Below the pieces are notes generated by a model that was not told where the DNA came from, made no database searches, and saw only the letters and a list, made by a program, of their open reading frames with translations. The position numbers were made by a program, and so were the translations under genes. A stretch of 38,713 nt of DNA from NCBI GenBank assembly GCA_002772695.1, contig PFDI01000002.1, positions 30,316 to 69,028 of the forward strand. Direction: 5' to 3'. This document shows, piece after piece, positions 3 through 36,449 of this stretch (position 1 is its first letter; the number at the start of each line of letters is the position of its first letter). This DNA comes from Candidatus Pacebacteria bacterium CG10_big_fil_rev_8_21_14_0_10_44_54. GTDB lineage: Bacteria > Patescibacteriota > Microgenomatia > UBA1400 > PJMF01.

Positions 3-653
3 TATACTTGGGAAGTTATTTTAAGTGACGACGGCTCAACAGATGGAACGCTCGATGAGTTGTATCGTTTTGCCGCTGCGCAGCAGAATGTAATTGTAGT
101 CGCCAACAAACATGCTGGTAAGGCAGCAACAGTTGCAGCAGGAATGTTGGCAGCAACAGGAGTTTGGCGCTTGTTTACTGATTTTGATCAATCAACACCG
201 CTGAGTGAGGTAGAAAAGTTATTATTAGTTGCGAAAAATAAGCACGATCTGATAATCGGATCTCGTGAGATTCAGGGTGCCAAGCGAGATGATGAGCCAT
301 TCTATCGACATCTCATGGGTAGAGTATTTAATCTGGTGGTGCAGATTATGGCTGTGCCTGGAGTTTATGATACACAGTGCGGCTTCAAGCTTTTTTCAGA
401 GCGAGCCACAATTGAGTTGTTTTCTCGATTATGGGTGTATGGCAATCTCACTGAGCGTGCTGATGCTTATACTGGTGCGTTTGATGTTGAGCTGCTTTAT
501 ATTGCACGTAAACAAGGGTATAAAATTGCAGAAGTGCCAATTTATTGGGAGCATCGAGAGACAGACAGGGTGAGCCCAATCAAAGATTCGCTACGCATGT
601 TTTTTGACATTTTGCGCATCAGGTTAGCTGCTCTGCGCGGCAAGTACGCATAG
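3..653 (+). CDS. GT2 family glycosyltransferase, polyprenyl/dolichyl-phosphate-sugar synthase-like (5' truncated by window edge)
   Basis: Open frame from base 3 (YTWEVILSDDGSTDGTLDELYRF...) continuous with the listed ORF; GT2 motif SDDGSTDGT, TDFDQSTP, and the QCGFKLF segment typical of DPM/DPG synthase-like GT2. Confidence 0.85.
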   Translation, partial: YTWEVILSDDGSTDGTLDELYRFAAAQQNVIVVANKHAGKAATVAAGMLAATGVWRLFTDFDQSTPLSEVEKLLLVAKNKHDLIIGSREIQGAKRDDEPFYRHLMGRVFNLVVQIMAVPGVYDTQCGFKLFSERATIELFSRLWVYGNLTERADAYTGAFDVELLYIARKQGYKIAEVPIYWEHRETDRVSPIKDSLRMFFDILRIRLAALRGKYA

Positions 654-654
654 C

Positions 655-1917
655 ATGAAGTACGCAGTCGCATTCTGGCTGAGTTTGCTTGGTTACACAA
701 TTTGGAGCTATGGCTTGGCAGATCCCAACCTAGTCTTTACCGCTTGGCAACCATACTGGCAGTTTCAAAACTGGGTTTGGTTGTTGGCTAGAACTTGGCC
801 AGCTATCTACGCCGCTGTCTTTATCATTCTTATAATTACACTTTTTTGGCTTTCGCTACAATTACAAAGTTGGTTGAACGATTTCAAAAAAATTTCTACC
901 AGCAAAGCTATTTTTTGTTTTTTTCTCTTAGTTTCACCACTGCTACTTTCATACAACGCACTATCTCATGATGTTTTCAACTATCTTTTTAATGCCAAGA
1001 TGGTTGTGGTATATCAGGCAAATCCTCATGTCCAGACAGCACTCAATTTTGACAACGATGACTGGACAAGATTTATGCACAACACGCACACTGTTGCGCC
1101 ATATGGCTATGGATGGACTGGGTTGTCACTGATTCCATATGTATTGGGATTTGGAAAATTCACCTGGTCGTGGTTAGTTTTTCGGTTATTTTCAGTTCTG
1201 AGTTTAGTTTTGGTATTTTTAAGCTTGAGACAGCTTGCACAGCAAATGGCCAAACATTTCTCGTTTGCCAATGCAGCTGTTTTTTTTCTCAACCCACTCG
1301 TACTTATCGAGGTAATCAGCAATGCCCACAATGATTTATGGATGTTGGCACCAGCCATATTTAGCGTAAGCGTGCTTGTAGCACGCAAACATGCATCGCT
1401 TGTTGCTAGAGTAGTTATTTCTTTGGGACTGCTTGGAGTTTCAATTTCTATCAAGTACGCGACAATTGTTCTTATACCCATTTGGTTTATTGTCTTATTT
1501 TTAGAACGCGTACACTCACGACTGCCCATTCCACAACGTTTTTTGAATATGCTTACTCAGGGCATTTGGGAACATGTATTTCGTCTTGTACCGAATGTCG
1601 CGGCTGTTTTGCTGTTATTGCCGCTCTTGACCTTGCAGTCTCAGCAGTATCTGCCATGGTACCTTACCTGGTCTTTGGTTTGGTTGCCGCTTATTAAAGC
1701 ACCGAGCTGGCGAAGGTTTTGGTTAGTGCTTTCTTTGGCTGCAATGTTGCGGTATGTACCTTGGTTGTATGCTGGTGGATATGAGGGTGACACTGTGTAT
1801 TGGCAAAAAATTATTTCTCTGGGCGTGCCTGCAGCATATCTTGTTTGGAACTTACTACAAAGTAAGTCAAAGATGAGAAAAGAAAATATTTTGCTAGGAA
1901 GAACAATCAATGAGTAG
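655..1917 (+). CDS. Multi-pass membrane glycosyltransferase, GT87/MptA-B-like (GT-C fold)
   Basis: Many hydrophobic segments; early acidic loop motif HDVFNYLFNAKMV...NPH; starts 1 nt after the preceding stop. Confidence 0.65.
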   Translation: MKYAVAFWLSLLGYTIWSYGLADPNLVFTAWQPYWQFQNWVWLLARTWPAIYAAVFIILIITLFWLSLQLQSWLNDFKKISTSKAIFCFFLLVSPLLLSYNALSHDVFNYLFNAKMVVVYQANPHVQTALNFDNDDWTRFMHNTHTVAPYGYGWTGLSLIPYVLGFGKFTWSWLVFRLFSVLSLVLVFLSLRQLAQQMAKHFSFANAAVFFLNPLVLIEVISNAHNDLWMLAPAIFSVSVLVARKHASLVARVVISLGLLGVSISIKYATIVLIPIWFIVLFLERVHSRLPIPQRFLNMLTQGIWEHVFRLVPNVAAVLLLLPLLTLQSQQYLPWYLTWSLVWLPLIKAPSWRRFWLVLSLAAMLRYVPWLYAGGYEGDTVYWQKIISLGVPAAYLVWNLLQSKSKMRKENILLGRTINE

Positions 1918-3499
1918 CACCGCAAATAATAATAGACTCTATTTGTTTGGGCTTGTTGCAATTGTGACGCTCTACCTAACTTCGCACCTCTGGAACTTGC
2001 TCGGGCTACCAGTATTTGCTGACGAAGCTATTTATATTCGTTGGTCTCAATTAATCATTGATGATTGGCGTCGCTATCTATTTTTCCCGCTTAATGATGG
2101 TAAAACTCCTTTTTTTATGTGGTTATTAGTGCCATTTCAGTTTGTATTTTCTGATCAATTATATGCTGCTCGATTTGTTTCCGTACTTATCGGATTGGGC
2201 CAGATTGGTGCAATAGTCTGGGTTGTTCGCCTGTTTGGCGGTTCAAGAACCGCACGCATACTTGCTGCAATATTTGTAGCCATTTTGCCATTTTGGTTTT
2301 TTCATCATCGCATGGCATTGATCGATGCCACCCTAACCTTGTTTCTCACCGTAAGTTTAGCCAGTCTTTTAGAAGTAGTGACACGTTCTTTTACCTTCAA
2401 TTTTAGTTCCACCTGGCAGTTAAAAAAAATAATTCGTACAGCGCTTTATGAACCATGGCTATTTGTAGCAGGAGGATTTTTTGGCTTAGCACTGTGGACG
2501 AAGGTGCCCGCTGTATTATTTGCACCTACGCTACTCGTATTTGCATTTTTACCTGTTAGAAAAACAGTTCTAGAACGCAGCTTGTTATTAGCACAAGCAA
2601 GCATGGCGGTGGTAATTGGAGTTGTCTTGTTTTTGCTGCTCAAGTCACAACCAGTTTTTTCTCAATTATTTTCACGAGGTAATGACTTTTTATTTCCCTG
2701 GAGAGAGGTGATGCTTGGTGGTATGTGGCGACAGACTATGATTAATATCCCTACCTATACTGTGTATTTTCTGCAGTATCTGACACCTGCAGCTATAGCA
2801 TTAATTGGTGTAGGATTGTTTTTTGGCAAGGTAAAAAAGAAAATTTTTCTCTTAGTTTTATCAGCGCTTGCATTTATTTTACCAATCGCGCTGTTTGGCA
2901 AAGTTGTGTATCCACGATATTTTGTACCAGCTATTTTACCGCTTACAATCGCCGCGAGTTTAGCGCTGGCTGAGTTGTTGCAATTTTCTAGAAACACACA
3001 AGTTTTGCTACAGAAACGAGTTTTTGCGGCGGTAGCGAGTGTATTGCTATTAGCAAATACCATTACCAGTTCTTTGTTATTTATTTTTCCAGTTGTTTTA
3101 ACACCAGATACCACTCCGTTTGTACCAGCAGATGTAACGCAGTACCTGACAGAATGGTCATCCGGCCATGGCTTGAAAGAAACAATTTCGCTTATGAGAG
3201 ACAAAACTAAGGAGGGCAACACACTTGCAGTAGCTACAGAGGGATTTTTTGGTACGCTGCCCGACGGCCTTCTCTTGTACTTGCACAACAGAGATGTTTC
3301 ACAACTTATGGTTCAGGGTATAGGACAGCCAGTGTTTGGTATTCCAGAGGAATTTATAACACAAGCTGCCCAGTATGATACTACTTGGTTGGTGGTCAAC
3401 TCGCATCGAATGAAGATGGAGACTACAAACTTCAAATTGGTTGCTGAGTTTTGTCGTCCGTATAATGCTCCCTGCTTGCAGGTTTGGGAGTTACTATAG
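1910..3499 (+). CDS. Membrane glycosyltransferase, GT39/ArnT-like
   Basis: GLPVFADEAIYIRWSQLI first-loop acidic motif, multiple TM helices; overlaps the preceding gene by 8 nt. Confidence 0.75.
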   Translation: MSSTANNNRLYLFGLVAIVTLYLTSHLWNLLGLPVFADEAIYIRWSQLIIDDWRRYLFFPLNDGKTPFFMWLLVPFQFVFSDQLYAARFVSVLIGLGQIGAIVWVVRLFGGSRTARILAAIFVAILPFWFFHHRMALIDATLTLFLTVSLASLLEVVTRSFTFNFSSTWQLKKIIRTALYEPWLFVAGGFFGLALWTKVPAVLFAPTLLVFAFLPVRKTVLERSLLLAQASMAVVIGVVLFLLLKSQPVFSQLFSRGNDFLFPWREVMLGGMWRQTMINIPTYTVYFLQYLTPAAIALIGVGLFFGKVKKKIFLLVLSALAFILPIALFGKVVYPRYFVPAILPLTIAASLALAELLQFSRNTQVLLQKRVFAAVASVLLLANTITSSLLFIFPVVLTPDTTPFVPADVTQYLTEWSSGHGLKETISLMRDKTKEGNTLAVATEGFFGTLPDGLLLYLHNRDVSQLMVQGIGQPVFGIPEEFITQAAQYDTTWLVVNSHRMKMETTNFKLVAEFCRPYNAPCLQVWELL

Positions 3500-4168
3500 T
3501 TCTTTGGCGATGTAGCCAATACCTCTAATAGTTTGGAGTATTGCACCAGAGTTTTTAAGCCGCATTCGTAATCTCCGTATGTATACATCTACAGTTGTGA
3601 ATTCTGGAACATCATCAGAAAATCCCCAAATTCCATCTATGAGCATCGTTCTTGTAATGACTTGGTTTTTTCGGCGGAAAAAATAGGCCAGTATTTCTGC
3701 TTCACGCTTTCTCAGTTGATATTGAGCGGACCCAATATAAAGGTGAGCTGTTTCAAGTTGTAGAGCTACATTTGCCAAGTGGAGTAAGGCTCCGAGCTTA
3801 TGTTTGTCAAAATTAAGTAGTTTATCGCAGTAGAGATCTAGGCATTTTTTGGTCACCGGCTCCTTAAGGAAAAGATCTGCTCCTGACGCTAGATAGCGTT
3901 CTTGTGGTGGATTAGACTCTAGCGAAGCTATAACTAGTATTTTGGTTGGGTATGAAACTTCCCTTACATAAGAAATAAAATCTTGATATTGTGGTACATG
4001 TTTTGTGAGCTCTACAATAAGTAGATCAACTTTGTTTTGTTCTATTAAGTCATTGGCGACGACAAGGCTTTTTGTAGTGTGACAAACTGTTGCAGAGTGC
4101 TCAGGTTTCGCGTGATACTTGTTGCTCACAACATCAGACTGAACCAAGGCTACTATCTGTTTTATCAT
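3494..4168 (-). CDS. OmpR/PhoB-type response regulator with degenerate receiver domain and winged-helix DNA-binding domain
   Basis: C-terminal winged helix (RKREAEILAYFFRRKNQVITRTMLIDGIWG...TVDVYIRRLRMRLKNSG..IQTIRGIGYIAKEL-like). Receiver-like N-terminus. Start moved to MIKQIVAL because the longer ORF runs into the tRNA. Confidence 0.8.
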   Translation of the reverse strand: MIKQIVALVQSDVVSNKYHAKPEHSATVCHTTKSLVVANDLIEQNKVDLLIVELTKHVPQYQDFISYVREVSYPTKILVIASLESNPPQERYLASGADLFLKEPVTKKCLDLYCDKLLNFDKHKLGALLHLANVALQLETAHLYIGSAQYQLRKREAEILAYFFRRKNQVITRTMLIDGIWGFSDDVPEFTTVDVYIRRLRMRLKNSGAILQTIRGIGYIAKEL

Positions 4169-4171
4169 TTT

Positions 4172-4180
4172 TGGTATACT
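4172..4180 (+). promoter_or_regulatory. Extended -10 promoter (TGGTATACT) for tRNA-Gln
   Basis: TGn-TATACT ends 12 nt upstream of the predicted tRNA 5' end; no convincing -35. Confidence 0.5.
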
Positions 4181-4192
4181 ATCTATTCTCGC

Positions 4193-4263
4193 TCCCGAGT
4201 AGTGAAGCGGCATCACAACAGGTTCTGGTCCTGTTATCCTAGGTTCGAATCCTAGCTCGGGAT
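4193..4263 (+). tRNA. tRNA-Gln (anticodon CUG), no encoded CCA
   Basis: 7-bp acceptor TCCCGAG/CTCGGGA, D stem GTG/CAC, anticodon stem ACAGG/CCTGT with loop TTCTGGT, T stem CTAGG/CCTAG with loop TTCGAAT. The U1-A72 pair is typical of bacterial tRNA-Gln. Confidence 0.92.
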
Positions 4264-4322
4264 CACACTTTTTCTCAATGAATCAAGGTAACTCATTTCA
4301 TTATTTGCAGTGATCTCATAAG

Positions 4323-4343
4323 CTTCCTTTATAGCAAAGGAGG
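4323..4343 (+). promoter_or_regulatory. Hairpin that pairs the Shine-Dalgarno of the VanX-like gene
   Basis: CTTCCTTT-ATAGC-AAAGGAGG: 8-bp stem (one G-U), 5-nt loop; 3' arm is the SD, 5 nt before the ATG at 4349. Confidence 0.6.
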
Positions 4344-4348
4344 TCGAT

Positions 4349-5125
4349 ATGATAGAACGATATGAATACCATCCGTATGCAGAGTTGCAAACACTCGATT
4401 CTGGCAAGCAGCCAATTCCAGTATTACAACCCATCGATGGTTGGCAGAATATTCAGATAGATGAGAGTGGCGAGCCGCTGGTTAATCTGCACAAGTACAC
4501 TGGAAAAAGACTGACAGTACTGCCGCAGTATTTTATCAAGGGGTATAGAGAAGCAAGTTTTGAACAAGAGATTCGAGCCGGTGTCTTTGAGCGTTTATTA
4601 CTTGCCGCCGAAGCTTTGCCTGCCGAGTATCGTTTGGTGATTTGGGATGCATGGCGACCAAAGTCTTTACAAAGTGAAATTTATAATCGTTTTTATCAGC
4701 AGCTAATGCAAGCACATGCAGCTTTGAGTCCAGAAGAGCTAGCAGTACTTTGCGGGCAGTTTGTAGCACTGCCTTCGGCTGATCCGACACAACCCGCCCA
4801 CCACCTAACAGGGGGTGCAGTTGATGTGACAATTATGGATGATTTTGGTCAGGAGTTGTGGATGGGAACAGAATTTGATGATTTTTCTCAAGTTGCTCAC
4901 ACTCGCTATTTTGAATCTGAAGAAAATTGCTTGACAGATCGAGATAAAGAAGCGCAAAGAAACAGAAGAATACTGCACGATGCTATGTGCAATGTAGGCA
5001 TGTTCACAGGTCTGGATACTGAGTGGTGGCACTTTCAGTATGGTACACAAGCACATGGCTTGTTGACCAATCAAAAAGCCTGGTATGGAATACCAAGTAG
5101 TAAACAAGATGGGAGGGTGGCATGA
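4349..5125 (+). CDS. VanX/DdpX-like D-alanyl-D-alanine dipeptidase (peptidase M15D)
   Basis: IWDAWRPKS (VanX Arg motif), HHLTGGAVDVTIMD (Zn His and Asp 7 residues apart), DTEWWHFQYG (ExxH); strong SD AAAGGAGG. Confidence 0.9.
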   Translation: MIERYEYHPYAELQTLDSGKQPIPVLQPIDGWQNIQIDESGEPLVNLHKYTGKRLTVLPQYFIKGYREASFEQEIRAGVFERLLLAAEALPAEYRLVIWDAWRPKSLQSEIYNRFYQQLMQAHAALSPEELAVLCGQFVALPSADPTQPAHHLTGGAVDVTIMDDFGQELWMGTEFDDFSQVAHTRYFESEENCLTDRDKEAQRNRRILHDAMCNVGMFTGLDTEWWHFQYGTQAHGLLTNQKAWYGIPSSKQDGRVA

Positions 5126-6201
5126 GTAGCAAGAAGACATTACTAATAGTATTTGGCGGTGTTTCATCAGAGCATGATGCATCAAAAAAATCTTTTGAAC
5201 ACGTGCTTTCACGTCTTACGGAGAAAAAAATTACACAAACATTCGCTGCTATAGAAATAGCATATGTTACAAGAGAAGGAAAAGTAGTCAGAACGACGTA
5301 TCAGACAGGGATTGAAGTTACAGAGTGTGTCCGAAGTAAAAAATATATCTCTCTTTCTGACTTAGTAATTGACTTGGTCCAACCAAATATCTTTGTTTTT
5401 TCTTTACTGCATGGGCAACACGGCGAAGACGGTTGTTTGCAAGGTTTAGCAAAATTTCTTGGTATTAGCGGTTCGTTTGGATCTATTTTATCTGCGTCTT
5501 TGGCTATGAGCAAACTTCATAGCAATATATTTGTTGCTGGACTAGGTAGTGAAGCTAAAATCCCAAAAACAACAAGCATTACATCTAACAGTGAAATAGC
5601 AAAAGCAATCGAGACTTGGCAGTTAGGCGAGAGAGTTGTGGTCAAACCGAGCTCGCTTGGAGCGAGCATTTTGACTGAACTTGTTACAATCGGTAAAGAT
5701 AATAAAAAAATATCCGATCTGATCAAAAAAATCTTGAGGTACGATACAGCTGTCTTGATGCAAGAGTTTATCTCAGGAGAAGAGTATTCTTGCGGTTGTC
5801 TAGAAGAAAAGGGAAAAATTTTGGCATTGCCTCTAATAAAAGTGATAACTGACAAGCAGTTTTTTGGCCACGCAGAGAAGCATGTATTGGGGAAAAATGA
5901 AGAACTTGTTATTTCTTCCGATGATGAGAACGAGACTGAGACGAGAATTCGCCAATTGTCTCAACAATTATTTCGTGCGATAGGATTGCGCCACATGGCA
6001 AGATTTGATTTTCGAGTCAATGATTGGGGTGAAATTTTTTTCCTCGAGGTAAATCCATTGCCAGGTATGATGGAAAATAGCATCTTTCCCAAGATGTTGC
6101 GCGCTGCCAACAAGAATGTCGAAGATGTGATTTTACTTTCCTTTGATGCTATTAGTCATGACGAGCAAAAAGTAACTGATTTCAGATATCACATAGATTG
6201 A
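5122..6201 (+). CDS. D-alanine--D-alanine ligase family ATP-grasp protein (D-Ala-D-X ligase candidate)
   Basis: FGGVSSEHDAS, SLLHGQHGEDGCLQGL, VVKPSSLGAS, FFLEVNPLPGMMENSIFP; 4-nt ATGA overlap with the preceding gene. Confidence 0.9.
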   Translation: MSSKKTLLIVFGGVSSEHDASKKSFEHVLSRLTEKKITQTFAAIEIAYVTREGKVVRTTYQTGIEVTECVRSKKYISLSDLVIDLVQPNIFVFSLLHGQHGEDGCLQGLAKFLGISGSFGSILSASLAMSKLHSNIFVAGLGSEAKIPKTTSITSNSEIAKAIETWQLGERVVVKPSSLGASILTELVTIGKDNKKISDLIKKILRYDTAVLMQEFISGEEYSCGCLEEKGKILALPLIKVITDKQFFGHAEKHVLGKNEELVISSDDENETETRIRQLSQQLFRAIGLRHMARFDFRVNDWGEIFFLEVNPLPGMMENSIFPKMLRAANKNVEDVILLSFDAISHDEQKVTDFRYHID

Positions 6202-6205
6202 AGCA

Positions 6206-6919
6206 ATGCATAAACCTAAAAAAAGCAAATTACTTGGTTTAATAGGAGGAGTCAGCTGGACATCAACGCTCGAGTATTACAAACGATTTAATCAGCAGGT
6301 GTATCTTGCAAGAGGTGGCTATGAAAGTGCTCGGTTATTGCTAACAAGTGTCAATTTTGCAGAAATACTTGCGCTACAACAAGCGGGAGATAGTGATTTG
6401 GAAGCCGAATTTCTGATTCGTGAATTGCTGCGATTGGAGCGGGGAGGAGCAGATTGTGCATTGATTTGCTCAAATACTACCAATAAAACAATTGATGCAC
6501 TGAGGAAAGCAGTCAGTGTGCCACTCATTTCTCTTCCAGAATCAGTTGCGGTTGAGGCTAGACGACTAGGAATTCGACGACTCGGGTTGTTGGGCACTTC
6601 TTACACGATGTATGGTAGCTTTTATCGAGAGTGTTTAGAGTCCCATGGTTTAGCTGTATCAGTGCCTGAGAAGCAATTAGGCTCGCAAATACACAATATC
6701 ATCTATGAAGAACTAGTCAAAGGAGCTGTCTTACAGAGATCGGCTGAAGTTGTGGACGCTGCTTGCACAGCTTTTGCTGCTGCTGGTGTGGATACAGTAG
6801 TATTGGGTTGTACAGAGCTACCGCTACTGCGATCAAAGTTGAAAACATCTAGTACTTTACTCGATACCATCGATATTCATATTGCACGGGCTTTAAACTT
6901 TGCTTACGCAACAAACTAG
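6206..6919 (+). CDS. Aspartate/glutamate racemase family protein (PLP-independent amino acid racemase)
   Basis: LGLIGGVSWTSTLEYYKRFN, first Cys motif ICSNTTNKT, LGLLGTSYTM, second Cys motif VLGCTELPLL. Confidence 0.88.
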   Translation: MHKPKKSKLLGLIGGVSWTSTLEYYKRFNQQVYLARGGYESARLLLTSVNFAEILALQQAGDSDLEAEFLIRELLRLERGGADCALICSNTTNKTIDALRKAVSVPLISLPESVAVEARRLGIRRLGLLGTSYTMYGSFYRECLESHGLAVSVPEKQLGSQIHNIIYEELVKGAVLQRSAEVVDAACTAFAAAGVDTVVLGCTELPLLRSKLKTSSTLLDTIDIHIARALNFAYATN

Positions 6920-6929
6920 TAGGTAGAAA

Positions 6930-6981
6930 AAGTCTTCAAGAGGACAGTAGTGTGCTGAAGCTACTGTCCTCCTCAAGACTT
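6930..6981. terminator. Long imperfect hairpin between convergent genes (possible transcription end structure)
   Basis: 21-nt arms AAGTCTTCAAGAGGACAGTAG / CTACTGTCCTCCTCAAGACTT, 19 of 21 complementary, 10-nt loop; T-rich tail only on the minus-strand side. Confidence 0.55.
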
Positions 6982-7079
6982 ATGTAGACAATTATAGACA
7001 TACATATTTGATATGTAAATAGCATTTATCCTGATTTATAGATATATTGCCGCTCTGCCCAAGGATTTTGATAGGAAAA

Positions 7080-8762
7080 TTACGAGTATAAAAAAGATTC
7101 GAGCCGGTGTATTTCGAGCTCTTTGCGCTTGTTGAATCCCGTCAAGTCTAAGCCAAAATGAGAAATAATTCTTTGAATATGGTTGGCACCAACCGCATGA
7201 GACCATACGACATACGTTGCTCCAGCATCATAGAGACGCAATGCATCCTGAGCTGAGCGAGCCGACACCACTGCTTTCATGTGTTTGTGTTTGCTTACCA
7301 CATATTTTAGTATCAGCAGATTTGTTTCTAGCTCTGGAATGTTGGAAACAATAAGACGAGTAGTGTCGAGCGGAAGTTCTTGTAGAAATTCAACATTACT
7401 TGCGTCACCAAAGAAGTGTGGCAACTTCTTTTCTTTCAGATTTTTTATAATTTCTGGGTCATGATCAATAATCGCAAATGATTTGGCAGTTTTCAAGAAA
7501 TGCGGCAGCAGTTGCGTGCCAAGATCATCACAGCCGAGGAGCAAAACTTCGTAGGTTGCTTGTGATTTGGGAATACGCTTCTTCTTGTTGCGGAATTCAA
7601 GTAAGCCAAGAATAGGAGAAATTCGCGCGTAGATAGGATCAGCATAGAGGAAAAAATAGGTTGAACCAGCAATTGTAATCAGGCCAACAAGCGTCGTGAT
7701 GGTTATTGCAGTTTGAGAAACGTGACCAAGGTTGCCGCCAAATGCGACAAGAATAAGTGAGAACTCGCTAATTTGGGCAACAGTAAGTCCTGTCATGAAG
7801 CCAGTTCGACGCTCATACCCCATCAAGTTCATAATGAACATGACTATGAGGGGATTACCAAATAGAACAAAAGCTGAAAGTAACAGTACTGGTCCAAATA
7901 AATCGGCGGATGTACTGAGAATGAGTTCTGATCCGAGGAGAATAAAAAACAAGGTGATAAAGAAATCCCTCAACGGCCGCATTCTAGCACTAATCTCTTC
8001 GGTATAATCAGAACTTGCCAGCGCAATACCAGCAGCAAGTGAACCAATTTCGGTTGAAAAGCCAAGCAGAGCGAACAAGGCGGCCGCACCCAGTCCCCAA
8101 GATAGTGAAAACAAAAATAGCAATTCGCTATTTTTGCTGGCAATACTCACTACTTTTGGCAAAACATACTTAGAAATCAGGATCATTAGAAGAGTGAGAC
8201 CCACACCTTTTAGTAATGTGTCAGTGAGTGAGGCGGTCAAGCTGTCAGAATTGGTTTGAGCAAAGGCAGTAATGATTATCAGAATAGCAGCAGCTATTAC
8301 ATCCTGAATGAGCAATACTCCTATAGAAATTTTTCCGTAGAGCGTCTGTAAATCACCACGATCACTGAGGAGCTTGAGAACAATGATGGTACTACTAAAG
8401 GTGAGGGCCAAACTCAGGTAAGCAGCTTCGATGGCAGAAAAACTAAGTAGCCATAAAATAAAAAATCCAAGTGTAGAAGTAAAGAGCACTTGACCCACTC
8501 CAGCGATGCTGGAGACTTTACCGACTTCTTTGATAACAATCGGACTTAGGTGTAATCCAACGATAAAAAGTAAGATAGTGATGCCAAACTGAGAAAAAAC
8601 TTCAAGCAACTCATAGGCCTGAATGAGATTCAGAGCAGAAGGCCCAACAAGAATGCCAGTGAGGATATATGCAACTATCAGAGGCTGCTTAAAAGCTCTT
8701 AATAGAAATGACAACAGCACTGCGATTGCCAAGACGAGAGAGAGCTCGATAAAGATTGGCAT
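7080..8762 (-). CDS. Kef-type CPA2 cation:proton antiporter with C-terminal RCK/TrkA-N domain
   Basis: About 12 TM helices (LLRAFKQPLIVAYILTGILVGPSALNL...) followed by a Rossmann-like RCK domain (EVLLLGCDDLGTQL...FAIIDHDPE). Confidence 0.88.
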   Translation of the reverse strand: MPIFIELSLVLAIAVLLSFLLRAFKQPLIVAYILTGILVGPSALNLIQAYELLEVFSQFGITILLFIVGLHLSPIVIKEVGKVSSIAGVGQVLFTSTLGFFILWLLSFSAIEAAYLSLALTFSSTIIVLKLLSDRGDLQTLYGKISIGVLLIQDVIAAAILIIITAFAQTNSDSLTASLTDTLLKGVGLTLLMILISKYVLPKVVSIASKNSELLFLFSLSWGLGAAALFALLGFSTEIGSLAAGIALASSDYTEEISARMRPLRDFFITLFFILLGSELILSTSADLFGPVLLLSAFVLFGNPLIVMFIMNLMGYERRTGFMTGLTVAQISEFSLILVAFGGNLGHVSQTAITITTLVGLITIAGSTYFFLYADPIYARISPILGLLEFRNKKKRIPKSQATYEVLLLGCDDLGTQLLPHFLKTAKSFAIIDHDPEIIKNLKEKKLPHFFGDASNVEFLQELPLDTTRLIVSNIPELETNLLILKYVVSKHKHMKAVVSARSAQDALRLYDAGATYVVWSHAVGANHIQRIISHFGLDLTGFNKRKELEIHRLESFLYS

Positions 8763-8763
8763 A

Positions 8764-10410
8764 TTATTGGTATAAAGTAGTTTGATACTCTTGCAACATG
8801 CGACCAGCGTCGAATGTACGTGCTGCTAAAATTGATTGTTGCATCATTGCTACCCAGTTTTCAGGGTAAATTTGTGTATTTCGGCGGTAAAACTCAGGAA
8901 TAATTTTTTGCTCCAGAGTTTCATAAAGTGACTCCGAGACTCTCTCACTGTCTAGTGTCCAGCCAACGCCATTCCAATCAAGCTCTGCTGCCCACCCGTC
9001 GGTGACCGTAAAGTTGATTACCCCGTTGGCGAGCGCCTTCATACCAGATGTACCACAAGCTTCCTTGCCCATTTCGGGTGTATTGAGCCAGAGATCTGAG
9101 CCTCGGGTTAAGTGTTGTGCAAGCTCAATATTATAATTGGGAACAAATAAAGCATGTCCCGAGAGTTCTCCTTGCATAGTTTGGATTATTTGCTGCAGCA
9201 GTTCTTTGCCCGATTGATCCTGTACATGTGCTTTACCGGCTACGAGAAGAAGCACGGGCTGATTTATCTTTGTTAGAATTGATTTCAGACGCCTGATATC
9301 TGCAAACAGCGCATTCACTCGTTTGTAACCAGCAATACGTCGTGCCCAGGATATGACGAGCCAACTTGGATCGTAGTTGTAGCCAGTACGGTTTTGCACC
9401 ATTGCTCTGAGTTGTTCTTTTTCCTCAAGATGTGCCTGCCAAAGTGTTTTGGGATTTCCCTGTGCAGCAGCAACAGCAGCAGATTGCCAGGTGCCAAAAT
9501 GTACGGCATTCGTAATGGCACTCCAGTGATACTCAGGCCACATTTTACGCGAGAGCTCTGTGTGTATGGCGCTTACACCAGAAGCTTTTCTTGACGAATT
9601 AAGCGAGAAAATAGTGTTTGAAAAATACTCATTTTTGCTCGACATGCCTGAGAATAGCAAGAGATCGACGTTGTCATCAGCCAACTCTGCGTATGGTTGT
9701 GCAAAAGCACGAATCAGATGTGGTGAGTAGGTATTATTCCCGGCATTGACAAGGGTGTGGTTGGTGTAGACGATTTTTTCTTTTGCTAGTCGCCATGCAG
9801 CGTGATACGCTAGACCCTGACGCTCTTTAAGTTGTCGAATTAACTCCCAAATCAAGAAGCTTGGGCGACCCTCATTTAGGTGGTACACTCGTGGCGTGAT
9901 GCCAAGCTTATCGAGCAATTTGGCGCCGCCAATACCAAGAAGTAGTTGTTGTTTGAGTTGCAACTCATGACTACCGGCATACAGCTCATGTGTAATACTG
10001 CGCTCATGGAGTTGGTTTTGCTCTGTTTCAGTATCAAGTAAATACAACGTGACGGTTGCAGAAATCACTTTTTTCCAGCAGCGGAGCCAAATATTGTTTG
10101 CAGCAATCTTTACTGGTATAAATAACGGCTGTTCGTCGTGATAGACGTGATCTAGACCTGCTTCGACAGGATCAAATTTCGCATTGCTTTCATACTGCAT
10201 TCCTTCTGCAGTGATATTTTGAATGCTACCAATCCCACGATACAAAAGACCAATGCCGACCATATGAACATGATCATCAGCCGCTTGCTTGAGCGTATCA
10301 CCCGCCAAAATTCCTAGACCGCCGGCATAAAACGGCAAATCACTCTCGAGGCCGAATTCGGCACAAAGATAAGCAATAGGATGGGCGGCAGTGGCAGGCA
10401 GAGCAGACAT
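8764..10410 (-). CDS. glgP: Alpha-glucan (glycogen/maltodextrin) phosphorylase, short form (GT35)
   Basis: PIAYLCAEFGLESDLPFYAGGLGILAGD, YHLNEGRPSF, EACGTSGMKALANGVINFTVTDGW (PLP-Lys context). Confidence 0.85.
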   Translation of the reverse strand: MSALPATAAHPIAYLCAEFGLESDLPFYAGGLGILAGDTLKQAADDHVHMVGIGLLYRGIGSIQNITAEGMQYESNAKFDPVEAGLDHVYHDEQPLFIPVKIAANNIWLRCWKKVISATVTLYLLDTETEQNQLHERSITHELYAGSHELQLKQQLLLGIGGAKLLDKLGITPRVYHLNEGRPSFLIWELIRQLKERQGLAYHAAWRLAKEKIVYTNHTLVNAGNNTYSPHLIRAFAQPYAELADDNVDLLLFSGMSSKNEYFSNTIFSLNSSRKASGVSAIHTELSRKMWPEYHWSAITNAVHFGTWQSAAVAAAQGNPKTLWQAHLEEKEQLRAMVQNRTGYNYDPSWLVISWARRIAGYKRVNALFADIRRLKSILTKINQPVLLLVAGKAHVQDQSGKELLQQIIQTMQGELSGHALFVPNYNIELAQHLTRGSDLWLNTPEMGKEACGTSGMKALANGVINFTVTDGWAAELDWNGVGWTLDSERVSESLYETLEQKIIPEFYRRNTQIYPENWVAMMQQSILAARTFDAGRMLQEYQTTLYQ

Positions 10411-10418
10411 AAGTAGTA

Positions 10419-11627
10419 TTACATACTATACATGCCATTTTGGTAGAGGGGAATCTGCTCTCCAGATGTCAAAGTAGCAATCACCGTGCGGTCACTGGTA
10501 GAGACGATATCAGTATGCTCTGCTGAGTCATTAAATCCTCGCTCCAACCAGTCATTTTTGGTTAGCTCACTTGGTTTGCCTCGGAAGCAATCTTTGTACG
10601 CCATGCCTATGGCAATATGCATGTTACCAAATGGTCCTCCCATATTTTCATCATAGAGCGTCTCTGCCATTGGATGTGTAATGCGTGATAAGCGTTTGTC
10701 TGTTAGAGAGAACTCGCCGATCTTATTGGCGTTTTTAGACTTAAGCATTTCATTCAGAATTTTTTGACCTACTCTTGCTCGAGCTTTAGCAACTAAACCA
10801 TTTTTGAATTCAAGCTCAATTCCATCAATTTTATTGCCGTATCGATAGACAGGTTGATTAAATTTTACCCAACCACGACTACCTCGCCAGTCTGGAGAAG
10901 TAAATAGTTCAAAGCTAGGAATATTCCGATCAACCCCGCCTTTCCAGATCCGATCTGGCCCAAGCTTGAGTTGGAGATTTATGTCATTGCCAGTGATATG
11001 AAGTGATTCAATTGAGAGTTTGTTCAAAGCATTGCGCGTTTGTTCTTGCAGCGTTTTAACTTTGCGCCACTCGGCGATCGGATCATCTGAGTCGAGAAAG
11101 CAGGCGTGAATAATTTGTTCCCAGTATTTTTTGAGTGAAAGCCCAACAATATCTGCTTTGGCTTGTACTCCCCAGAGGCCAACCGTCCAAGTGTGTTTGC
11201 CCTTATATTCTTTCTCGAACAACCACTCGCGGTATTTTTTTCTGGAATCTCTGGCTAACAATAATTTCTCAGGTGGAGTTGACTCAAGTTCAAACGGGTC
11301 GACGTCTGCAATTATGGCGATAGTATGATCGATGACATCAGATTTTGCTTTCAGATATTTTGCAGGGAAGAACGTCAGTTGCTCTTTTGAAGCAAGCGAA
11401 AAAAAATCTTTTTCGAACCCAGTCGGAACGATTCTCATCAGGACGTGCCCGCCAGCCCGAAGAACTTCATTCTGTAGTGCAAGGGCGAGCGGCTTGGCAA
11501 CATCAGGTACAATGCACTCGACAACTTCATTTTTGGCTATACCTTCTTTGCTGCCTAAGGCAAAATTAACCAGTACTTTGGCGTATTTCTTGAGTATTGT
11601 TGTTGATGGCTGATATGCTGCTGTCAT
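10419..11627 (-). CDS. M29 family aminopeptidase
   Basis: GRxVDRNIPSFELFTSP-like region, GNMHIAIGMAYKDCFRG, HTDIVST segment typical of AmpS/AmpT. Confidence 0.8.
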   Translation of the reverse strand: MTAAYQPSTTILKKYAKVLVNFALGSKEGIAKNEVVECIVPDVAKPLALALQNEVLRAGGHVLMRIVPTGFEKDFFSLASKEQLTFFPAKYLKAKSDVIDHTIAIIADVDPFELESTPPEKLLLARDSRKKYREWLFEKEYKGKHTWTVGLWGVQAKADIVGLSLKKYWEQIIHACFLDSDDPIAEWRKVKTLQEQTRNALNKLSIESLHITGNDINLQLKLGPDRIWKGGVDRNIPSFELFTSPDWRGSRGWVKFNQPVYRYGNKIDGIELEFKNGLVAKARARVGQKILNEMLKSKNANKIGEFSLTDKRLSRITHPMAETLYDENMGGPFGNMHIAIGMAYKDCFRGKPSELTKNDWLERGFNDSAEHTDIVSTSDRTVIATLTSGEQIPLYQNGMYSM

Positions 11628-12214
11628 AGATTGATCTTTTGAAGATACTCGACTACTTGAGTAAATGCAATAGAGCGATGAGAAATTGTATTTTTCTTAT
11701 TTAAACCGAGCTTGGCAAGTACTTCCTTTTCTTCAGTTGGTATAAATATTGAGTCGTATCCGAATCCAGTATCATTCGAAATTTTCATTGCAATTTCTCC
11801 AGACATTTCCCCAGTGAATGATCTTCCTACCGCGCTTATTGGGTCATAGAAATAAGCTACAGTAACGAACTTTGCTGCTCTATGTGGATTGTCAGCTAAT
11901 CGATCAAGTAGAGCTTTATTTCTATCATAGTCACTACCACTAAGCCAGCGCTTGCTCGCAACACCAGGTTCTCCACCCAGAACCGCTACTTGTAAACCAG
12001 TGTCCTCAGCGATGCTGGCTATACCGCTCTCTTGAGCAAATGCGCGCGCCTTGAGTTCTGCATTTTCTGCAAATGTTTTACCCGTTTCTGCTACATCAAG
12101 ATTTGCTACTGTTGGAATCTGGTTTGGAAATAACAACTCAATACCAGATGTTTTGAGCAGCGAGCGAATTTCTTGTTGCTTACCGGGGTTCTGTGTCGCA
12201 ACCAAGAGCCGCAT
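11624..12214 (-). CDS. rdgB: XTP/dITP diphosphatase (RdgB/HAM1)
   Basis: LLVATQNPGKQQEIRSLL, AEDTGLQVAVLGGEPGVAS, TGFGYDSIFIP, SHRSIAF. Confidence 0.93.
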   Translation of the reverse strand: MRLLVATQNPGKQQEIRSLLKTSGIELLFPNQIPTVANLDVAETGKTFAENAELKARAFAQESGIASIAEDTGLQVAVLGGEPGVASKRWLSGSDYDRNKALLDRLADNPHRAAKFVTVAYFYDPISAVGRSFTGEMSGEIAMKISNDTGFGYDSIFIPTEEKEVLAKLGLNKKNTISHRSIAFTQVVEYLQKINL

Positions 12215-18646: not shown

Positions 18647-19531
18647 CTAGAGCTCAATCAATTTGAGCGCCTCGACGACCGACTTCTGTTCTAACGGCAA
18701 AATTTTCAAGAGTTTTTTGCAGTTAAGTGCAGTATTGGCTTGATATGGCCTGGTCTGTTGCTTTTGGTAAGCGTCGAGATCATTTCTTTCAATTTTCCCT
18801 GGTAGTGAAAGCGCATTTTGCAGTGCTACACCAAAGTCATAATCACTCCATTTTTCGCCACTTGTTGCATGAAAAATACCAGAAATTCTACTTTGAATCA
18901 TAAAATCTAGAACTCGGACAAAGTCGTCGATAAATGTTGGACCGAAATAATGATTGTCAAATAATTTGGCAGCGCCTTGAGAAATCTTCTGGGCAAATTT
19001 GTGGGCAACGTCGAGTTTGGCAAATGGGTCAGAGCGAAACGGTTGGTCGATACGCGCAATGGTCCAAGAATGCAAGGAACTCATGACGATCTCTTCTGCA
19101 TAGGCTTTGGTCTGACCATACCACTCAATGGGGTTTGTGGTATCTGTTTCGGTGTAGAGTGTATCCTTTTTGCCGTCAAACACGTAGGCAGTTGAGACAA
19201 GAATGAGGTGTTTATCAAATTTACTTGCTGCACGAGAGAGCACTTCTGTTCCGGTTACATTAACCCTATATACAAGCCCATTTGTATCTCCCCGCTGCTG
19301 CCAAGCAGCAGTCACATCAGTAAAAGCTGCGAGATGCACACACGTTTTTGCAGTTGATTTTTCAAAAAAAGAAAATACCGTTTGTTCATCGGTTATATCA
19401 ACTGGTTGGATGGGATCAGAGATATCGAGTGTTTGCAGCTCATATTTGTCTGCATATATTTGTGCAAATTTGCTGCCGATAAGACCACTGCTACCCGTGA
19501 TAAGCAGTGCTTGTTTCGCTTCATTTTGCAT
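18647..19531 (-). CDS. rmlD: dTDP-4-dehydrorhamnose reductase-like (RmlD) short-chain dehydrogenase
   Basis: TGSSGLIGS, STAYVFDGK, YGQTK; adjacent to rmlB and an rmlC-like gene. Confidence 0.75.
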   Translation of the reverse strand: MQNEAKQALLITGSSGLIGSKFAQIYADKYELQTLDISDPIQPVDITDEQTVFSFFEKSTAKTCVHLAAFTDVTAAWQQRGDTNGLVYRVNVTGTEVLSRAASKFDKHLILVSTAYVFDGKKDTLYTETDTTNPIEWYGQTKAYAEEIVMSSLHSWTIARIDQPFRSDPFAKLDVAHKFAQKISQGAAKLFDNHYFGPTFIDDFVRVLDFMIQSRISGIFHATSGEKWSDYDFGVALQNALSLPGKIERNDLDAYQKQQTRPYQANTALNCKKLLKILPLEQKSVVEALKLIEL

Positions 19532-19532
19532 A

Positions 19533-20066
19533 CTAACCTTTGGTCATTTCCCAAACGTCAGCACCAAACTGGTCCCAAGATAATCGAAACTCGTCTGGAT
19601 CTGCTTTATCAAATTGTTCGCTGGTGTAGTAAATCAAGTTGGCAGCTACAGCACCAAGATTTGCGACACCATGGGCTACACCGGGTGGAATAGCAAGCAA
19701 TTTTGTGTTTGTACCACCAAGCATAAATCTCATATGTGTCTGGTATGTAGGTGAACCTGCTCGTACGTCGTGCAGGTTGACGAGCAGTGAAGATTCTGGT
19801 GGCGCAAACCAGACGTCTGTTTGGTTGTGATGTAGGTGATACGCCTTAATTACCCCGGGAGACATGTGAGAAAGACTCACCTGTTTGACAGTGATAGGCT
19901 GGGAAAAAACATGGAGTAGTCCAGTTTCGAGTCGAGCTAATTCGACAAAGTAACCACCATCATCTTGCATTACCGGCGTTGGAACAAATTCAACTCCATC
20001 AATTTTTGCTTGCTGTTGGTAGCTTTGTCTTGTTACCTGGTTAGCTATCTCTGTATGAATGTCCAT
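19533..20066 (-). CDS. RmlC-like cupin (dTDP-4-dehydrorhamnose 3,5-epimerase family, divergent)
   Basis: GVIKAYHLHHN, DVRAGSPTYQTH, LLAIPPGVAHGVANL; active-site Lys position not conserved. Confidence 0.7.
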   Translation of the reverse strand: MDIHTEIANQVTRQSYQQQAKIDGVEFVPTPVMQDDGGYFVELARLETGLLHVFSQPITVKQVSLSHMSPGVIKAYHLHHNQTDVWFAPPESSLLVNLHDVRAGSPTYQTHMRFMLGGTNTKLLAIPPGVAHGVANLGAVAANLIYYTSEQFDKADPDEFRLSWDQFGADVWEMTKG

Positions 20067-20080
20067 GACTATTCCTTTTA

Positions 20081-21112
20081 TTATTTTCTATCCTGATACT
20101 GTGTTTTGAAATACGCTTGATTTTGCTCTTTAAGCGGTCGCCACCAAGCCTCGTTGGCTCGGTACCACTCGATAGTCTTATTCAGACCTTCTTGAAGTGT
20201 GACGCTTGGTTTCCAACCAAGTGTTTTATTAATATGCGACCAATCAACGCTGTATTTTCGATCGTGACCTGCTCGATCAGTAACGTATTCAATGTTACTC
20301 TCTGGAATTTCCATTGCCTTAAGAATATATTTTATAACTTCGAGGTTGGTTGTTTCGATTGTTTCACCTCCAACCAAAAAAGTCGTATTAAGTTGGTCGC
20401 TCAAAATAATACATTCTATAGCGGAGCAGTGGTCGAGTACATAGAGCCAATCTCGAACTTGCAAGCCGTCACCATAAACAGGTACTTTATCTCCATCTAT
20501 GGAGTTGGTTATTGCAAGACCTACGAGCTTTTCTGGGAATTGGTGGGGTCCATAGTTGTTTGAGCAGTTTGAGATCGTGTAAGGCAATCCATAGGTCTCG
20601 CCATAGGCGCGGACAAGATGATCGGAGCCGGCCTTGCTTGCGGCGTAGGGACTTCTTGGGTTGTAGGGAGTTTTTTCACTAAATTTTCCTGGCTGACCGA
20701 GCTCAAGTGTGCCAAATACCTCGTCAGTCGAAATATGATGAAATCGCTTAACTTTTGATTTAAGCGCAGCATCAAGTAATACTTGAGTTCCAATCACATT
20801 TGTTTTGAGAAAGATTTGGGGATCAAGAATAGAGCGATCAACATGTGTCTCTGCTGCAAAGTGAACGACAATATCAACTCCTGCCATTGCGTGATCAACA
20901 ACTTCTTGGTTGGTGATAGAGCCTTTGATAAACGAGTATTCAGATTCATTTTCGACAGATTTTAGATTTTCTAATGTACCTGCATACGTGAGAGCGTCAA
21001 GATTGCGGATTTGATCATTGGGAAATTTCTTGTGCCAATACTGAATGAAATTGGATCCGATGAATCCTGCACCACCTGTTATGAGGAGTGTGATTGAGTG
21101 TTCTGGGTGCAT
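20081..21112 (-). CDS. rmlB: dTDP-glucose 4,6-dehydratase
   Basis: ITGGAGFIGSNFIQYW, VHFAAETHVDRSI, HHISTDEVFGTL, YNPRSPYAASKAGSDHLVRAY, SNNYGPHQFPEKL. Confidence 0.93.
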   Translation of the reverse strand: MHPEHSITLLITGGAGFIGSNFIQYWHKKFPNDQIRNLDALTYAGTLENLKSVENESEYSFIKGSITNQEVVDHAMAGVDIVVHFAAETHVDRSILDPQIFLKTNVIGTQVLLDAALKSKVKRFHHISTDEVFGTLELGQPGKFSEKTPYNPRSPYAASKAGSDHLVRAYGETYGLPYTISNCSNNYGPHQFPEKLVGLAITNSIDGDKVPVYGDGLQVRDWLYVLDHCSAIECIILSDQLNTTFLVGGETIETTNLEVIKYILKAMEIPESNIEYVTDRAGHDRKYSVDWSHINKTLGWKPSVTLQEGLNKTIEWYRANEAWWRPLKEQNQAYFKTQYQDRK

Positions 21113-21113
21113 A

Positions 21114-21290
21114 CTACTCCTTGCTGTTCTCTTGCATTATACCAAGCTTGATTTGTTCTAGTTTATTATTTTTGTGCACTTCTGTCTGGTAGAGCGCATG
21201 ATAGTAGCCAGCAAAAAGGGCCAACAATACTATGACGACCATCAGTATTTGGATAATTCGATTGGGGGGAATTGGTTGGTTTTTTGTCAT
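21114..21290 (-). CDS. Small single-TM protein (58 aa)
   Basis: MTKNQPIPPNRIIQILMVVIVLLALFAGYYHALYQTEVHKNNKLEQIKLGIMQENSKE*; ATGA overlap with the upstream LCP gene stop, stop 1 nt before the rmlB ATG. Below the ORF-track size cutoff. Confidence 0.7.
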   Translation of the reverse strand: MTKNQPIPPNRIIQILMVVIVLLALFAGYYHALYQTEVHKNNKLEQIKLGIMQENSKE

Positions 21291-22387
21291 TGTTGTATGT
21301 CAAGTGCTTTGTTAACTTCAGCTTGAAAAAGCTCTTGGTTTGTAATTTGGTACAGCCATGTACCATTGGTCATCTTGATGTTGGGGTGAGCAAGCACTCC
21401 AGATTCTGTTGCAGATTGTATTGAGAGTACTGCTGACTCTATTGTAAGGCCAGTCACAGCATGCTCACCCAGGGCTTTGCCAATTGCCACAATATCTTCT
21501 AGAGGAACAGCAGTTGAGAATCTTGTTTCATAAAATGAGAACAACTTGCCAAGCGTGCTTGGTTGACTAATGAGACGATCACTTATCGCACGCAACACGG
21601 CTGCAATAGCAAGCTTTTGACGCTCTGAACGGGCTAGGTCTGTGCCCTCTGCAGAGTCACTGTGTCTACTACGAATAAACTCCAAGAAACGCTCACCAGA
21701 CATGGATTCTTCGCCTTTGGCAAACGCGACCGTTTTATACAATTTGTTTGGATCTTGCTCGATTGTAACGTCGACACCTGGAATTGGAAACAGGGTATCA
21801 ACGAACGAATTTGGCACGTTGACAGTCACGCCTCCAAGTATGGTCACGAGTTCAGAGAGAGAATCCATATCAATTACAACCGTAAAATCGATCGAGATAT
21901 TACTCATCTCTTCAAGAACTTCTTTAGGAAAACGTTCTGGTTCATCTGGGTAGCGTTCAAAGCCGTAAGCATAGAGAGCATTGATTTTTGTTTTGTAGGC
22001 ATCACTCCAAATATCACGTGGGAGCGGTAATAGGTGGGCCGTACCAGATTGCAGATCTAGAGAGACAAGCAATATTGTATCTGTCAGTGGTGGAACATCA
22101 CCTCGACCTGCGATGGCATCACTCCCAAGAATAAGAAAAACAGGATTTGTCTTTCTTGATTCAACAATGCTCAATTTTTTTGCAAGCTGAAAGAGTTGTT
22201 TTGGAGTCCTGTCTGTTTCATCTGCCACCTGAACTAGATAGCGGTAGCCGAACCAACCTGCAATGATTCCAAAAATGAGAAATGAGGCAATTACGAGTGC
22301 GATCGCCAATGCAGTTGCCTTGAGTACGATACTCTTGAGTGAGAAAGTTTTTGGTGGTGCTAGTTCTTGCTGAGTGACTGCCTTCAT
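21287..22387 (-). CDS. LytR-CpsA-Psr (LCP) family cell-wall glycopolymer transferase
   Basis: N-terminal TM, VFLILGSDA...LTDTILLVSLDLQSGTAHLLPLPRDIW, ELVTILGGVTVNVP, RSRHSDSAEGTDLARSERQK. Confidence 0.9.
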   Translation of the reverse strand: MKAVTQQELAPPKTFSLKSIVLKATALAIALVIASFLIFGIIAGWFGYRYLVQVADETDRTPKQLFQLAKKLSIVESRKTNPVFLILGSDAIAGRGDVPPLTDTILLVSLDLQSGTAHLLPLPRDIWSDAYKTKINALYAYGFERYPDEPERFPKEVLEEMSNISIDFTVVIDMDSLSELVTILGGVTVNVPNSFVDTLFPIPGVDVTIEQDPNKLYKTVAFAKGEESMSGERFLEFIRSRHSDSAEGTDLARSERQKLAIAAVLRAISDRLISQPSTLGKLFSFYETRFSTAVPLEDIVAIGKALGEHAVTGLTIESAVLSIQSATESGVLAHPNIKMTNGTWLYQITNQELFQAEVNKALDIQQ

Positions 22388-25542: not shown

Positions 25543-25553
25543 AATGGGAAGCA

Positions 25554-27358: not shown

Positions 27359-27367
27359 GAATGTAGT

Positions 27368-29268: not shown

Positions 29269-29272
29269 TTAT

Positions 29273-31620: not shown

Positions 31621-31623
31621 TTT

Positions 31624-33231: not shown

Positions 33232-33232
33232 T

Positions 33233-35200: not shown

Positions 35201-35215
35201 ACATATTAGAATTTA

Positions 35216-36448: not shown

Positions 36449-36449
36449 T

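Follow-up and report, generated by a model that had tools for sequence, protein, structure and literature searches.

A putative van-like cassette of an M15 dipeptidase, an altered Ddl-like ligase and an Asp/Glu-type racemase in a patescibacterial genome

We analyzed a stretch of 38,713 nucleotides (nt), hereafter the window, from the 0.84-Mb genome (96.8% complete) of Candidatus Pacebacteria bacterium CG10_big_fil_rev_8_21_14_0_10_44_54 (G000:C18:30316-69028), and describe a cassette of three genes on its plus strand. On balance, we lean towards the view that this cassette edits the terminus of the peptidoglycan stem peptide in a van-like manner, a role whose catalytic steps, substrates and purpose we infer from gene content and sequence comparison. 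The first gene (4349-5125) encodes an M15 (VanX/DdpX-like) dipeptidase of 258 amino acids (aa) (PF01427, 4e-19), the second (5122-6201) a Ddl-like ATP-grasp ligase of 359 aa (Pfam Ddl N-domain, 2e-14; C-domain, 1e-31), and the third (6206-6919) a racemase of the Asp/Glu type of 237 aa that is independent of pyridoxal phosphate (PLP) (PF01177, 1e-39). An initial annotation, made from the letters alone, had named the same three enzymes, and the Pfam matches confirm it; the coordinates also bear out its tight packing of the genes, with a 4-nt overlap between dipeptidase and ligase (5122-5125) and a 4-nt gap between ligase and racemase (6202-6205).

In the scheme that we propose, the racemase would turn an L-amino acid into a D-amino acid, X, and the ligase, with its altered second-substrate pocket, would place X behind another D-amino acid, which could be D-Ala or again X. 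The dipeptidase, acting in the cytosol, would clear the D-Ala-D-Ala that competes for MurF, and one of two MurF-like ligases would attach the alternative dipeptide to UDP-N-acetylmuramic acid (MurNAc)-tripeptide; lipid II would then end in D-X rather than in D-Ala. The purpose might be protection from D-Ala-D-Ala binders or from wall hydrolases, or the use of scavenged D-Ala-D-Ala. Our guess is that X is a small or acidic D-amino acid, with D-Asp, D-Glu or D-Ser as the leading candidates, because the racemase is of the Asp/Glu type, analogous sets contain enzymes of the Ser/Thr-dehydratase type, and a basic residue (His or Arg) at position 216 faces the second site.

Several lines of evidence support this reading. 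Firstly, the ligase combines the catalytic residues of a Ddl with an altered active site. With positions numbered after E. coli DdlB (identical in sequence to 1iov), the cassette ligases retain E15, K97, K215, R255, D257, E270, N272, G276 and S281, and with the N and C domains both present the fold and chemistry are those of the Ddl family. At four other positions S150 is replaced by Ala, G153 by Leu, E180 by Gln and Y216 by His; the two specificity residues of the window ligase are Ala181 (equivalent to S150) and His254 (equivalent to Y216). The standard residue was present at each of these four positions in 85 of 85 comparison Ddls, which were retrieved with an N-terminal peptide of the cassette ligase, a stretch that excludes these positions. 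All canonical patescibacterial Ddls examined have the standard S150, G153 and Y216, and two of them have Gln at position 180. It has been reported that Ddls making only D-Ala-D-Ala conserve S150 and Y216, and that DdlB in which S150 is changed to Ala and Y216 to Phe gains a weak D-Ala-D-Lac (depsipeptide) activity (PMC7691350). The cassette ligase does not carry this Ser150/Tyr216 signature and, because both residues are replaced, we infer on good grounds that it takes something other than D-Ala, or something in addition to it, as its second substrate. A predicted model of the ligase resembles the structures of Ddl, VanG and VanA about equally (query TM about 0.7-0.8); the AlphaFold model has a mean pLDDT of 84 but, with a pLDDT of 56-69 in the omega-loop (residues 241-260), leaves the pocket undecided.

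Secondly, the active-site residues of the dipeptidase are intact. Its residues 81-230 align with the VanX structure 1r44, and the equivalents of VanX R71, H116, D123, E181 and H184 are all conserved in alignments with 1r44 and with the proteins of the sister species, Rhodococcus and another member of the patescibacterial family (G033). No signal peptide is evident by eye, which matches the cytosolic VanX or DdpX. The protein is an M15 D,D-dipeptidase by fold, with D-Ala-D-Ala as its putative substrate. It carries about 80 additional N-terminal residues, which are shared with a 376-aa M15 protein of G033 (L224:3174-5347) whose gene adjoins one that looks FemAB-like by eye.

Thirdly, the racemase falls in TIGR00035 with 173.6 bits (cut-off 93.1), that is, within the EcL-DER/YgeA/RacX subfamily, and its nearest structures are of the EcL-DER type. 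The second catalytic residue, Cys202, is retained, and the position of the first base holds Ser89 instead of Cys; this position is Thr83 in EcL-DER and Ala79 in RacX. EcL-DER is known to work in the direction from L to D, and RacX has a broad specificity with a bias from L to D. A role as the MurI of the cell was rejected, as a separate MurI is encoded on contig C3 (TIGR00067, 148.1 versus 146.65 bits).

Fourthly, the three genes stay together in a relative, a check that the initial annotation had named. The sister species Candidatus Pacebacteria CG_4_10_14_0_8_um_filter_42_14 (G002) has the trio in the same order and with the same spacing, with 55% identity for the ligase, 49% for the racemase and 41% for the dipeptidase; the regulator upstream is likewise divergent, and the same glycosyltransferases are found on the far side. 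A fourth gene there, encoding a C39-like protein (L046:168-719, minus strand), overlaps the end of the racemase gene. No further trio was found in 94 genomes of the order, where the two cassette ligases reach 740 bits and the runner-up 103, nor in 384 sampled genomes of the phylum, where the next ligase reaches at most 124 bits. When 85,488 species genomes were scanned by pattern, the sister species was the sole close relative to emerge, distant ones being of a kind that would escape such a scan. Such wall-dipeptide sets were not known before in this patescibacterial lineage.

The setting in which the cassette works is unusual. Members of the genus hold ligases of the MurC, MurD, MurE and MurF kinds, several penicillin-binding proteins and MurI, and classification by model assigned two MurF-like ligases to the genome of the window. 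Neither Alr (Ala_racemase_C) nor a canonical Ddl was found in any of the four genus members searched; these genomes are 89-97% complete, and single absences are no proof, but the agreement of four genomes carries weight. Because neither enzyme is found in the genome, the cassette is not overlaid on a standard D-Ala-D-Ala pathway. The remodelling module suggested in the initial annotation has therefore to be modified: the conserved trio, the replacement of both specificity residues and the existence of analogous sets, some beside MurF or MurC, speak for it, but no normal D-Ala-D-Ala pathway lies underneath. A search for a canonical ddl elsewhere in the genome came back empty, so that the cassette ligase is not a second ligase beside a normal pathway. 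The genome encodes no other single-domain Ddl, a situation named in advance as a sign against remodelling if the enzyme made D-Ala-D-Ala alone, yet the active site of the cassette ligase is not of the D-Ala-D-Ala-only type. The other Ddl-like domain of the genome resides in an 808-aa double ATP-grasp protein (contig C21, L047:10227-12650, minus strand), composed of an L-amino-acid-ligase-like half and a Ddl-like half and found also in G001, G002, G004, G012 and G026, which could be an unusual Ddl. In the patescibacterial family as a whole (G000-G056), Alr is present in only 8 of the 57 genomes searched, and many genomes do not have any Ddl, yet the Mur ligases are kept in all. The dipeptide is either scavenged and then edited, or made by the cassette itself.

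The latter option leads to a different view of the cassette, in which it would be a substitute instead of an editor: the racemase, of broad specificity, and the ligase would together supply the D,D-dipeptide for MurF in a genus without Alr and canonical Ddl, and the M15 enzyme would recycle or trim dipeptides. The persistence of MurF-like ligases and penicillin-binding proteins in the four genus members is what this explanation would predict; moreover, Alr, Ddl and MurF genes are adjacent where members of the family have retained the pathway (L227), and 15 of 17 amino acids serve as substrates for a RacX-type racemase. However, two of the four genus members have neither the cassette nor a canonical Ddl, and the genus thus manages without it; the 808-aa protein, with its Ddl-like half, is an alternative ligase, and it would be a waste for one operon to encode both a ligase and a hydrolase of its product. 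We consider this substitution rather unlikely.

Among described systems, the closest is the predicted pdx operon of Micromonosporales, which comprises a PALP dehydratase, a Ddl-like ligase, a VanX-like dipeptidase and VanRS, and which was predicted but not tested in that study, where the logic of VanX, VanA and MurF is also set out (PMC8698665). The same study described rare sets of racemase, Ddl and VanY and proposed an alternative remodelling of the precursor (PMC8698665). Going by its description, the pdx operon and the cassette have in common that a Ddl-like ligase, a VanX-like dipeptidase, an enzyme of the racemase/dehydratase type and a regulator are combined in one set. The cassette is of the same kind, with a different racemase and regulator and in another phylum: pdx has a PLP-dependent Ser/Thr dehydratase-like enzyme and VanRS, whereas the patescibacterial cassette has a PLP-independent Asp/Glu racemase and an orphan regulator with a degenerate receiver. 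Two of the four pdx features are present, with no PALP protein and no kinase adjoining the trio.

The comparison with the van operons gives a similar picture. The logic of ligase, D-Ala-D-Ala hydrolase and racemase is shared with vanC, vanE, vanG, vanL and vanN, which specify D-Ala-D-Ser; these use VanXY and the membrane-bound PLP racemase VanT, whereas the cassette has an M15 enzyme and a racemase of PF01177, not a VanT-type PLP serine racemase. Against the NCBIfam models, the ligase scores 140.9 for VanG (cut-off 495) and 121.9 for D_ala_D_ser (cut-off 520). With vanHAX, which specifies D-Ala-D-Lac, the cassette shares an M15D-type dipeptidase beside a variant ligase of the Ddl family, but it has a racemase in place of the VanH dehydrogenase, and its ligase scores far below the VanA, VanB and VanD cut-offs. 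The absence of a VanH-like gene, remarked upon from the letters, holds for the scanned part of the window (60-12214), where no VanH D-lactate dehydrogenase was found and the neighbors are glycosyltransferases, an antiporter and a phosphorylase. The cassette belongs to no named van type tested; it is therefore less likely to be a van operon, but no less likely to work in a van-like manner. A similar pairing is that of Aslfm and aspartate racemase in enterococci and lactobacilli, where the D-amino acid provided by the racemase enters peptidoglycan by way of an ATP-grasp ligase, as we propose for the cassette; unlike the cassette ligase, Aslfm attaches D-Asp at the cross-bridge, is no relative of Ddl by sequence and has no dipeptidase partner.

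Relatives outside the phylum extend the picture. The nearest ligases in plasmid records, those of Paraburkholderia phymatum (37% identity) and Rhodococcus rhodochrous (34-35%), both have the Ala/His pair. In a maximum-likelihood tree, the ligases of the cassette, Paraburkholderia, Rhodococcus and rhizobia form one clade (100/100) apart from the canonical Ddls, and those of Streptomyces, with Gly150 and Arg216, lie on a separate branch (100/100); the Nonomuraea enzyme has Asn216. The operon of Rhodococcus plasmid pGD02.2.2 (L249:5944-9365) encodes, in this order, the ligase, a PLP racemase-like enzyme, a C39 protein and an M15 enzyme; the C39 protein shows 40% identity with the fourth protein of the sister species (E = 9e-43), and between the M15 enzymes of this operon and of the window the identity is 36%. 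This operon thus resembles the cassette in its Ala/His ligase and M15 enzyme, and the sister species also in its C39 protein, but a PLP enzyme replaces the Asp/Glu racemase and the M15 gene comes last instead of first. The Streptomyces sets consist of an altered Ddl-like ligase, a PLP enzyme and then C39; at five loci MurF adjoins the set, and four of these have a MurC-like ligase as well. A corresponding set in Nonomuraea adjoins an M55 D-aminopeptidase. The PLP partners of the Streptomyces ligases show a Ser-Gly-Asn-His motif, which accompanies racemase ability in this enzyme fold. As a separate observation, the rhizobial plasmid ligases at L252:5421-9788, L254:6459-8436 and L256:6412-8071 follow panD and mostly have Gly and Thr at the two positions; in L252 and L254 they are followed by alr or an Alr fragment, and in L252 also by an S58 peptidase. 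These panD-linked ligases perhaps make a dipeptide containing beta-alanine. A viral origin was rejected: relatives of the ligase and of C39 are absent from viral contigs, and the matches in phage records are ligases of about 25% identity in unannotated records.

The C39-like proteins form a family resembling Peptidase_C39_2, with the signature IPYFAQWESPxLV ... CGMACLKM ... GGHLVL ... NPSG, whose loci include, besides that of the sister species, L249:8053-8706, L277:8663-9301, L278:6779-7417 and L265:5980-6600. A gene of this family lies near a Ddl-type ligase gene in at least 28 of 53 plasmid records, from Rhizobiaceae and Actinobacteria, and our literature searches found no description of this link. 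The distance between the two is 49-75 nt in Rhizobiaceae, where the one ligase examined has the canonical Ser/Tyr, and about 1 kb in Streptomyces, Nonomuraea and Rhodococcus, which fits the PLP gene lying between them at the annotated loci. In two other Patescibacteria the C39 gene is flanked by a MurA-like gene and Ddl. Another member of the patescibacterial family, G024 (L049:8043-10534), combines a different Ddl-like ligase with a second kind of C39-like peptidase and a convergent Asp/Glu racemase; membership of its C39-like protein in the C39 family described here was rejected, since there is no detectable relationship.

A role in wall-precursor synthesis is suggested because racemases, D-peptidases and Mur ligases recur beside such ligases. 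It is possible, and we put it forward tentatively, that the cassette represents a wide class of modules, not yet described, that edit wall precursors and whose parts can be exchanged. It would put a residue that is not D-Ala, D-Lac or D-Ser at the end of the stem and would work in this genus without alanine racemase. The slots would be filled by an altered Ddl-type ligase (from two independent lineages), a racemase (Asp/Glu, Ser/Thr-dehydratase type or Alr), a D-peptidase (M15, M55 or S58), a dedicated C39-like enzyme and, often, the module's own MurF and MurC.

The same neighborhoods bear on two further explanations. The trio might make and break a soluble dipeptide of D-amino acids that has no connection with the wall and acts as a small natural product or signal, which would suit the location of the S. 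chartreusis set near a tgm peptide-maturase pair and the surroundings of the Paraburkholderia plasmid ligase given below. However, the MurF and MurC companions in Streptomyces and the patescibacterial order MurA-C39-Ddl favor wall precursors, and genes for export, tailoring and self-resistance are absent from the window cassette in a genome of only 0.84 Mb; we regard this explanation as improbable. Least probable of all, the M15 enzyme and racemase might degrade D-dipeptides from host-wall fragments to L-amino acids in a ddp-like salvage with ligation as a side activity. In keeping with this, the M15 enzyme has its top NCBIfam match in the DdpX-type D-Ala-D-Ala dipeptidase PRK10178, and C39 relatives in Mesorhizobium terrae and Brucella anthropi adjoin transporters for dipeptides as well as dipeptidases; but breakdown offers no role for a ligase that consumes ATP and has a conserved altered pocket, the cassette has no transporter, and enzymes of the EcL-DER type favor the direction from L to D.

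Several observations weigh against van-like editing of the stem peptide. The cassette in the window does not include MurF and, with neither Alr nor canonical Ddl found, no source of D-Ala or D-Ala-D-Ala is apparent. The dipeptidase scores 31.7 bits against the VanX equivalog NF033115, where the cut-off is 320. G001 and G003, of the same genus, do not have the trio, and in the sister species the dipeptidase gene (L046:2507-3292) and the C39 gene (L046:1-719) are both interrupted by what looks like a frameshift, for which assembly error and decay are alike possible causes. The Paraburkholderia plasmid ligase, the closest outside the phylum, has a MATE exporter and an AMP-binding protein as neighbors, and rhizobial ligases of the same clade adjoin Alr and an S58 peptidase, or panD; neither the Paraburkholderia setting nor that beside panD or alr gives a hint of the wall.

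If van-like editing is nevertheless what the cassette performs, remodelling of the D-Ala-D-Ala target would extend beyond Gram-positive glycopeptide producers and resistant Gram-positive bacteria to bacteria that are uncultivated and probably live as episymbionts, and would there involve a different racemase and perhaps a terminal residue not seen before. The Ala/His pair at the two DdlB specificity positions provides a concrete sequence signature for finding further modules, and the linked C39-like family a new handle for doing so. The cassette is also relevant to how stem peptides are completed in Patescibacteria that have neither Alr nor Ddl.

Upstream of the cassette, an orphan regulator gene of the OmpR/PhoB type (3494-4168, minus strand, with its ATG at 4168) is transcribed divergently. 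It had been described as response-regulator-like, and its divergent orientation and winged helix (PF00486, 1e-18) are clear, but it is not an ordinary response regulator: no receiver domain passed in the Pfam scan, that of the sister species alone coming near the cut-off, and the phospho-acceptor Asp is replaced by Glu (IVELT, aligned to ILDIM of 1kgs) and, in the sister species (L046:3511-4182), by Ser (ISVTY). No kinase was found among the scanned neighboring genes. Lacking both the acceptor Asp and a nearby partner kinase, the regulator is unlikely to be controlled by phosphorylation in the manner of VanR.

The transcription unit is headed by a tRNA-Gln (CTG) gene (4193-4264, plus strand), as the tRNA tools confirmed; the same position in the sister genome consists of 170 N, so that the linkage of tRNA and cassette stands for the window and the sister genome is uninformative. 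A mobile element borne by the tRNA gene was rejected, as its 3' end is not repeated in the window or flanks and there is no anomaly in GC content. The extended -10 noted before, TGGTATACT, is indeed present at 4172-4180 (plus strand), 12 nt upstream of the tRNA gene; it has no -35, for which reason the promoter scanner reports nothing there. It belongs to the tRNA promoter and probably also drives the cassette by read-through. A 9-bp hairpin can fold over the Shine-Dalgarno sequence of the dipeptidase gene (4322-4344, plus strand), as had been proposed, but its support is marginal: its stability was matched in 7 of 200 shuffles of 39 nt and in 24 of 200 of 101 nt. A conserved regulatory hairpin is thus unsupported, the structure being only modestly above chance and absent from the sister species. 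The long hairpin that closes the cassette (6930-6981, plus strand; -28.5 kcal/mol) was upheld, with none of 200 shuffles equally stable. It is not followed by a T-run and is therefore no classical terminator; it also lies 3' of a convergent antiporter gene. Further along the window, genes of the dTDP-rhamnose type and a LytR-CpsA-Psr protein (18647-22387) adjoin a long series of genes for glycosyltransferases and large membrane proteins (22418-38668), which together suggest a surface-polysaccharide locus.

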